Assembly (NCBI GenBank): GCA_946551795.1
Contig: CAMNRF010000001.1
Coordinates: 62,001-126,000 of the forward strand
Direction of reading: 5' to 3'
DNA length: 64,000 nt
Source: an uncultured Oscillibacter sp.
GTDB lineage: Bacteria; Bacillota; Clostridia; Oscillospirales; Oscillospiraceae
The notes beneath the pieces were generated by a model. That model saw only the letters and a list, made by a program, of their open reading frames with translations, was not told the DNA's origin and made no database searches. This document shows, piece by piece, positions 8,534-19,245 of this stretch (the first letter of the stretch is position 1; every line of letters begins with the position of its first letter). The position numbers and the translations under genes were made by a program.

Positions 8534-8588
8534 CACCTTTCCACCCTTACCATTACGGCAAAACCGCAATGGTAAGGGTGGAAAGGTG
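8534..8588. repeat. 25-bp inverted repeat inside rnpB
   Basis: Arms 8534-8558 and 8564-8588 with a 5-nt loop; 24 of 25 positions are complementary, and the exception is a G.U pair in the RNA. One arm is the conserved J12/11-P10 segment of RNase P RNA (GGTAAGGGTGGAAAGGTG), the other is its inverted copy. The repeat element at 8590-8667 abuts it. Confidence 0.9.
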
Positions 8589-8589
8589 T

Positions 8590-8667
8590 CCGCCCCCATA
8601 GGGGGCGGTCCGCTGCGGCGGGGTTGATTGAAATCGTGAAAGGCGGGCCTCGCCGGCCCCCTTTCAC
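8590..8667. repeat. Two-hairpin repeat, copy A (inside rnpB)
   Basis: Hairpin 1 is 8590-8597 with 8601-8608; a core follows at 8604-8635; hairpin 2 is 8636-8649 with 8555-type arms at 8655-8667 on the other side. The core matches copy B (19087-19116) at 28 of 32 aligned positions. On the plus strand both copies have the same order: snap-back repeat, hairpin 1, core, hairpin 2. Here it is antisense to rnpB transcription. Confidence 0.8.
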
Positions 8668-8891
8668 ACTATCCCCCGCTTCCCGGCTCCGCTGCGCGAT
8701 TGCCGGGAACGCAGTGATCCATGTTCCTTATCAGCACGGTTTTACCGCAATGGCGGTATATCTCTGTTGCACTTTTCCTGAAGTCGCCTTCGGCGGGCGT
8801 TACCCGTTATCCTTGCCCTGTGGAGCCCGGACTTTCCTCATGGACGGCCTTTCGGCCTGCCCACGCGACCGTCTGTTTTACTCGCCCGTCT

Positions 8892-18945: not shown

Positions 18946-19022
18946 GCGTCCGTAGCTCAGCAGGATAGAGCGTCCGCCTCCTAAGCGGAAGGCCAGCGGT
19001 TCGAATCCGCTCGGGCGTACCA
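18946..19022 (+). tRNA. tRNA-Arg, anticodon CCT
   Basis: Folds as a 77-nt cloverleaf with encoded CCA (19020-19022): acceptor GCGTCCG/CGGGCGT with G1.U72 and U4.G69 wobbles, D-arm starting GCTC, anticodon stem CCGC/GCGG around loop CTCCTAA, and T-arm AGCGG-TTCGAAT-CCGCT. Anticodon CCT reads AGG (Arg). Its last nine bases (19014-19022) form the outer part of a 25-bp inverted repeat with downstream DNA. Confidence 0.96.
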
Positions 19023-19066
19023 GAAGAAAGAGACAGCCATCGGCTGTCTCTTTCTTCTGGTACGCC
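19014..19066. repeat. Perfect 25-bp inverted repeat spanning the tRNA 3' end (likely terminator)
   Basis: Arms 19014-19038 and 19042-19066 are perfectly complementary with a 3-nt loop (ATC). The outer nine bases of the left arm are the tRNA 3' end including CCA. The inner 16 bp look like a normal tRNA terminator stem, but no T-run follows; the outer part is unexplained by termination. It joins the repeat copy B directly. Confidence 0.85.
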
Positions 19067-19149
19067 GCCTTTTGCCTTTTGCAAGAGGCGGTCGCTGCGG
19101 CGGGTTGATTTCAATCATGCGGAAAAAACCCGCAAAGGTTTTTCCCGCA
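19065..19149. repeat. Two-hairpin repeat, copy B (downstream of tRNA-Arg)
   Basis: Hairpin 1: CCGCCTTTTGC (19065-19075) with GCAAGAGGCGG (19081-19091). Core 19087-19116, matching rnpB copy A (8604-8635) at 28 of 32 aligned positions. Hairpin 2: 19118-19130 with 19137-19149 (one mismatch). The hairpin sequences differ from copy A but their positions are the same, as expected for a conserved structure. Confidence 0.8.
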
Positions 19150-19216
19150 CACACCCTTTTCCTCGCGTAATCGGGGAGTTTTCTAAAATACCAAAGGTCT
19201 TCGCGGTGTTGGCGGC
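19150..19216. other. Intergenic DNA between the repeat and the xer promoter
   Basis: No gene seen. It starts with CACACCCTTTTCC after hairpin 2 and then becomes ordinary AT-richer spacer. With the flanking repeats and leader it makes up the 361-bp gap between tRNA-Arg and the recombinase. Confidence 0.5.
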
Positions 19217-19245
19217 TGGACTTGTCGGGAAAACCGTGATATAAT
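19217..19245 (+). promoter_or_regulatory. Probable promoter of the Xer-type recombinase
   Basis: TGGACT (19217-19222), 17-bp spacer, TATAAT (19240-19245). A second possible -35 TTGACA lies at 19281-19286 next to the palindrome. Confidence 0.5.

Follow-up and report, generated by a model that had tools for sequence, protein, structure and literature searches.

The window, that is, the whole stretch of 64,000 nucleotides of DNA from an uncultured Oscillibacter sp. analyzed here, carries an RNase P RNA gene and a tRNA-Arg gene, and two copies of a structured repeat are found in the P12 region of the former (8590-8678) and after the latter (19065-19159). These sites agree with those given in an earlier note on this DNA, and rest on Rfam for the first gene and on ARAGORN and Rfam for the second. 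The cores of the two copies were also located there as we find them (8604-8635 and 19087-19116), with 28 identities over 32 aligned positions and two gaps of 1 nt, and folding confirmed that each lies between two real hairpins, H1 and H2. Copy 1 and the RNase P RNA gene are on opposite strands. Two features were absent from the earlier note: a long perfect palindrome precedes each core and carries the host sequence on backwards (from 8534 to 8588 in the first copy), and there are two P12 hairpins, one on each side of the RNase P copy (Table 1). No left terminal repeat was recognizable in either window copy, and no right-hand duplicate of the terminator was seen for the tRNA-Arg copy.

Table 1. 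Features of the two window copies and their host genes, and positions of a second structured motif in other sequences.
Feature	Position	Strand	Evidence or remarks
RNase P RNA gene, class A, holding copy 1 in P12	8349..8884	-	Rfam RF00010, 256.7 bits, E 1.7e-82
P12 hairpin (target), left copy of the duplicate	8544..8572	+	29 nt; 21/29 identical to 8725-8753; single in element-free relatives
Inverted (putative fold-back) copy of host 8534-8549, lengthening the P12 hairpin into RNase P	8573..8588	+	Palindrome by sequence and fold; absent from empty sites
H1, copy 1	8590..8608	+	Fold; covariation across copies
Mini-hairpin Hc, CCGC-TGCG-GCGG, copy 1	8610..8621	+	Sequence; variants in relatives CCGCC-TGCG-GGCGG and CCCGGCGC-TTTGC-GCGCCGGG
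Conserved linker GGTTGATTGAAATC, copy 1	8622..8635	+	TGATT part kept in most copies
H2, copy 1	8636..8667	+	Fold; covariation
Tail ACTATCCCCCGC..., copy 1	8668..8724	+	Matches the tail of relatives, CACACTATCCTCC
P12 hairpin, right copy of the duplicate	8725..8753	+	Same arrangement in L052, L179, L184, L190, L194, L195
tRNA-Arg(CCT), host gene of copy 2	18946..19022	+	ARAGORN and Rfam
Terminator palindrome; 3' arm ends TTCTGGTACGCC, the inverted tRNA 3' end (19014-19021)	19014..19066	+	Fold -48.6 kcal/mol; absent in element-free control tRNAs
H1, copy 2	19065..19091	+	Fold; start of covariance model
Mini-hairpin and linker TCGCTGCGGCGGGTTGATTTCAATCA, copy 2	19092..19117	+	Sequence; copies elsewhere
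H2, copy 2	19118..19149	+	Fold; covariation
Tail CACACCCTTTTCCTCGCG...TTTTCTAAAATACC, copy 2; right end uncertain	19150..19225	+	By-eye alignment with the tails of L025, L070, L091, L097
Second structured motif	L014 1360-1415; L078 110-175; L102 1717-1770; L120 1470-1520		

Structure and distribution of the family

Pattern and DNA searches retrieved more copies from the same genome and its relatives, and so did a covariance model, a check that the earlier note had proposed. The model, built from nine copies, gave 13 matches in the genome of the window (E<1e-4) and matches in 44 of 300 genomes of the family, distributed in 25 of 106 genera (E<=1e-6). At E<=0.1 it matched 59 of 86 genomes of the genus, with 0 to 45 matches per genome, and as it rests mainly on two hairpins the weak matches alone prove little; the TGATT linker and the CACAC/CTATCCTCC tail are common to most matches inspected. 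A scan of named genomes found copies in Oscillibacter valericigenes An860 and in several assemblies of uncultured Oscillospiraceae and Clostridia. Exact cores in other phyla (L041, L048, L055, L058, L064, L066) were discarded as chance matches, lacking the hairpins.

The unit consists of hairpin H1, mini-hairpin Hc, the TGATT linker, hairpin H2 and a tail, in this order. In an alignment of 70 copies fitted to the model, with which a MAFFT alignment of nine sequences agrees, 92.5% of the pair cells are paired, against 37-54% when the partners are slid by 1-3 columns, and the covariation score is 0.670 against 0.09-0.19 in the slid controls. At each of the 24 pairs both partners have changed, and the sequences of the stems are nearly free. 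The stems keep their pairing and not their sequence, the hairpin chain being held by compensatory change, as the earlier note had supposed from the two window copies. Given this pairing, the number of matches in the same genome and the up to 45 in that of a relative, the resemblance between the two copies is far above chance, and a chance similarity is excluded.

Complete copies and their target

The terminal inverted repeat CAGNNTGTC[GA]AAAA was found at both ends of 28 complete relatives, with 120-232 bp between the ends. In these copies, an inverted copy of the left end comes immediately after it, forming a hairpin (H0), and next are the unit from H1 to the tail and, finally, the inverted end sequence. 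Matches to the ends reach about 190 in one genome, G259. The complete copies directly adjoin an intrinsic terminator: a hairpin stands at the left end in 26 of the 28, the left flanks folding below all 100 shuffles, and in 24 of the 28 the right end has the whole left hairpin again, with a match exceeding that in all 200 shuffles. The duplicated hairpins measure, for example, 31, 29, 31, 23 and 40 bp, and exact repeats extend up to 40 bp. Both ends and the hairpin duplication are present in L015, which has the exact core of the window, and in L075, a copy from the same genome whose right end has diverged. The terminator hairpins flanking L271 differ by an inverted loop and those flanking L260 by a different inner stem, as if hairpins were inverted or rewritten.

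The family shows the features of a MITE: its members are short and non-coding, with many interspersed copies, terminal inverted repeats, a target-site duplication and an empty orthologous site. The small interspersed element described in the earlier note is confirmed by these copies and by filled and empty sites, and on element and structure that note was right. It was too narrow on the target, as it saw an element that targets, or is tolerated in, stable RNA genes: most copies outside the tRNA and RNase P group are located at terminators of protein genes. As a hairpin is common to all sites, the target is the hairpin and not the stable RNA gene.

Relation to IS1182 transposons

Transposases of the IS1182 family (NF033551, E 1e-63 to 1e-102) are encoded in two genomes of the same genus, G246 and G270. 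The DNA ends of IS1182 in the genus are CAGCCTGTC[GA]AAAA (in one case CCGCCTGTCAAAAA) and lie against hairpins. The IS1182 copies with these ends (L273, L274, L279, L280, L282, L283) match the element ends over a short length, the common terminal repeat being about 14 bp only; in L280 and L282 the hairpins at the two ends are different and do not form a duplication. Neither the genome of the window (G000) nor G259 gave a match to the IS1182 transposase (PF13751), both assemblies being incomplete, and thus mobilization in trans is what we infer. In G228, pairs of end repeats 2.7-3 kb apart were considered as autonomous elements and rejected, as they enclose ordinary genes, encoding an EF-G-like protein in one case and a tyrosine recombinase with a zinc-ribbon-like protein in another.

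IS1272, a member of the IS1182 family, inserts at stem-loops or terminators and removes them (PMC5678879, PMC4923244), and duplication of the whole stem-loop has been drawn as an alternative outcome (PMC5678879). The elements resemble IS1272 and the staphylococcal TnSha1 in having a stem-loop as target, often a terminator, with no sequence consensus (PMC5678879, PMC4923244), and they share the ends CAGNCTGTC[GA]AAAA with the IS1182 copies of the genus. However, at 120-232 bp they have no transposase gene, they duplicate the hairpin that known IS1272 insertions delete, and they contain a covarying hairpin chain and, in the tRNA and RNase P copies, a putative fold-back copy of host sequence. The earlier note knew of no described family that matches; indeed, Rfam gave no match over the element in either gathering or E-value searches, but the ends and target preference of the complete copies are shared with IS1182-family transposons. 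No literature on IS1182 MITEs, or on such elements in Oscillibacter, was found.

The family is real, widespread and directed to hairpins, and it probably depends on IS1182. On balance, we consider it likely that this is an Oscillospiraceae family of short, non-autonomous, MITE-like elements moved in trans by IS1182-family DDE transposases, through attack on a cruciform and, in some copies, fold-back synthesis. The transposase would recognize the terminal repeats together with a stem-loop of DNA, usually an intrinsic terminator; the extruded stem-loop would be joined at its opposite feet, and gap filling would then result in the element being flanked by two full hairpin copies.

tRNA sites

The copies at tRNA genes lack the left end repeat, and the terminator palindrome runs on into an inverted copy of the tRNA 3' end. 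By an automatic criterion (at least 6 tRNA bases mirrored), such a copy is present at 22 of 25 element-bearing tRNAs and at none of 40 tRNAs without an element (Fisher 1.9e-14). The other three show the mirror by eye, with one indel or a few mismatches. The set of 25 was completed by hand with L106, L210, L215, L222 and L226, which are matches to the model but had escaped the regular expression for the core. Five further cases from other genera (L290, L300, L303, L304, L311) agree by eye. The mirrored bases are located past the T-tract, at which transcription would be expected to end, and they therefore point to a process at the DNA level. The tRNA-type footprint also occurs in several copies away from tRNA genes, such as L036 (...TTTTGGTGCCC) and L023 (...TTTTCTGGTGCGCGAGG), which suggests that these copies came from a tRNA site.

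At tRNA and RNase P sites, repair synthesis that crosses the target hairpin may fold back, copy 6-16 nt of the host strand and then join the element. The resulting scheme, in which stem-loop-targeting transposition duplicates the whole hairpin while in a second class (tRNA and RNase P) a target-primed fold-back writes an inverted gene end, is possible but somewhat doubtful in this detailed form. Inverted host copies are exactly what snap-back, i.e. template-switching replication at hairpins, would produce, and such errors could have picked up structured sequence at tRNA and RNase P genes with no transposase, which would fit the missing left terminal repeat. We consider this origin unlikely: the extension is absent from the 40 element-free tRNA terminators, so that it is not a general replication error, and the family includes complete copies with fixed ends and duplicated targets.

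The RNase P site

In element-free relatives, P12 is a single short hairpin (e.g. L134). The comparison with relatives that the earlier note had called for showed that the site is filled in the genome of the window and in at least 12 others (at least 13 species); many genomes of the genus have an empty site. Where it is filled, P12 stands on both sides of the element, and in most cases TAAGGGTGG... lengthens the left copy backwards, an extension that has decayed in a derived group (L180, L181, L183, L185, L192). The Rfam alignment still permits the long-range P12; when the insert is folded alone (8538-8764, minus strand), a perfect local hairpin of 21 bp is predicted to take up the conserved GGUAAGGGUGG of the ribozyme. 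P12 has been described as sometimes dispensable, as in cyanobacteria (PMC2858038). In other species of the genus (L191, L193, L186, L189, L196) quite different long inserts are found in P12, which is thus an insertion hot spot.

An insertion common to so many species, together with the strongly conserved pairing and the frequent position after terminators and tRNAs, might indicate a functional cis element, such as an extended terminator or a regulatory RNA, selected at gene 3' ends and vertically inherited. Yet orthologous sites are empty in relatives, the copy number varies between 0 and 45 within one genus, and the target is duplicated both at unrelated genes and within RNase P, where the element lies on the opposite strand; such a role is therefore quite improbable as an explanation of the family.

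Comparison with other repeats

STRR repeats occupy P12 of the RNase P RNA in cyanobacteria, and these, like the Rickettsia palindromic elements, are examples of repeats that genes for RNase P RNA or other structural RNAs tolerate within them. The elements described here differ from them in their unrelated sequence and in the duplication of the whole P12 hairpin around the insert. An essential ribozyme with a mobile element in P12 is thus found in many species, and by the predicted fold a new hairpin of 21 bp would compete with a conserved part of the RNA.

A palindromic repeat of the REP/RAYT type, moved by a Y1 (HUH) transposase, would also be short, palindromic, intergenic and present in high copy, but REP stems are conserved in sequence and have a GTAG-type foot, whereas here the stems vary at nearly every pair, no such foot was seen, and the terminal inverted repeats and long target duplications are not made by Y1 transposases, so that this origin is extremely improbable.

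Bacterial MITEs, for example MITEAba12 (PMC6382973), are likewise short, non-coding and present in many copies, with terminal inverted repeats and a target duplication. Compared with them, the present family is distinct in that the duplicated target is a whole palindrome of variable length, about 17-40 bp, and the inner stems keep pairing and not sequence. The family provides a natural data set for structure-directed transposition, since duplication of the whole stem-loop, just a possible side path for IS1272 (PMC5678879), is the rule here. Moreover, the inverted copies of tRNA ends would be footprints of strand synthesis, and thus the mechanism could be read from the sequence and tested.

Other sequences adjoin or interrupt some copies. 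A repeat of roughly 500 bp in G086 (L016, L019, L021, about 1385-1890), with 81-85% identity between repeats, adjoins some of them; it contains a number of additional inverted repeats, and Rfam gave no match to it. Two copies have another structured motif, GAGCCGC..GCGGCGA..AAGTGCCCTTGGGGTGCG, within the mini-hairpin, and this motif is found at other places too (Table 1). A long-core variant (L014, L078) was considered as a possible full-length form and rejected, as just 2 of 86 genomes have its motif, which in addition occurs away from the element. Finally, in O. valericigenes An860 (L007, 1520-1650) another palindrome-rich insert breaks H2 of a copy.
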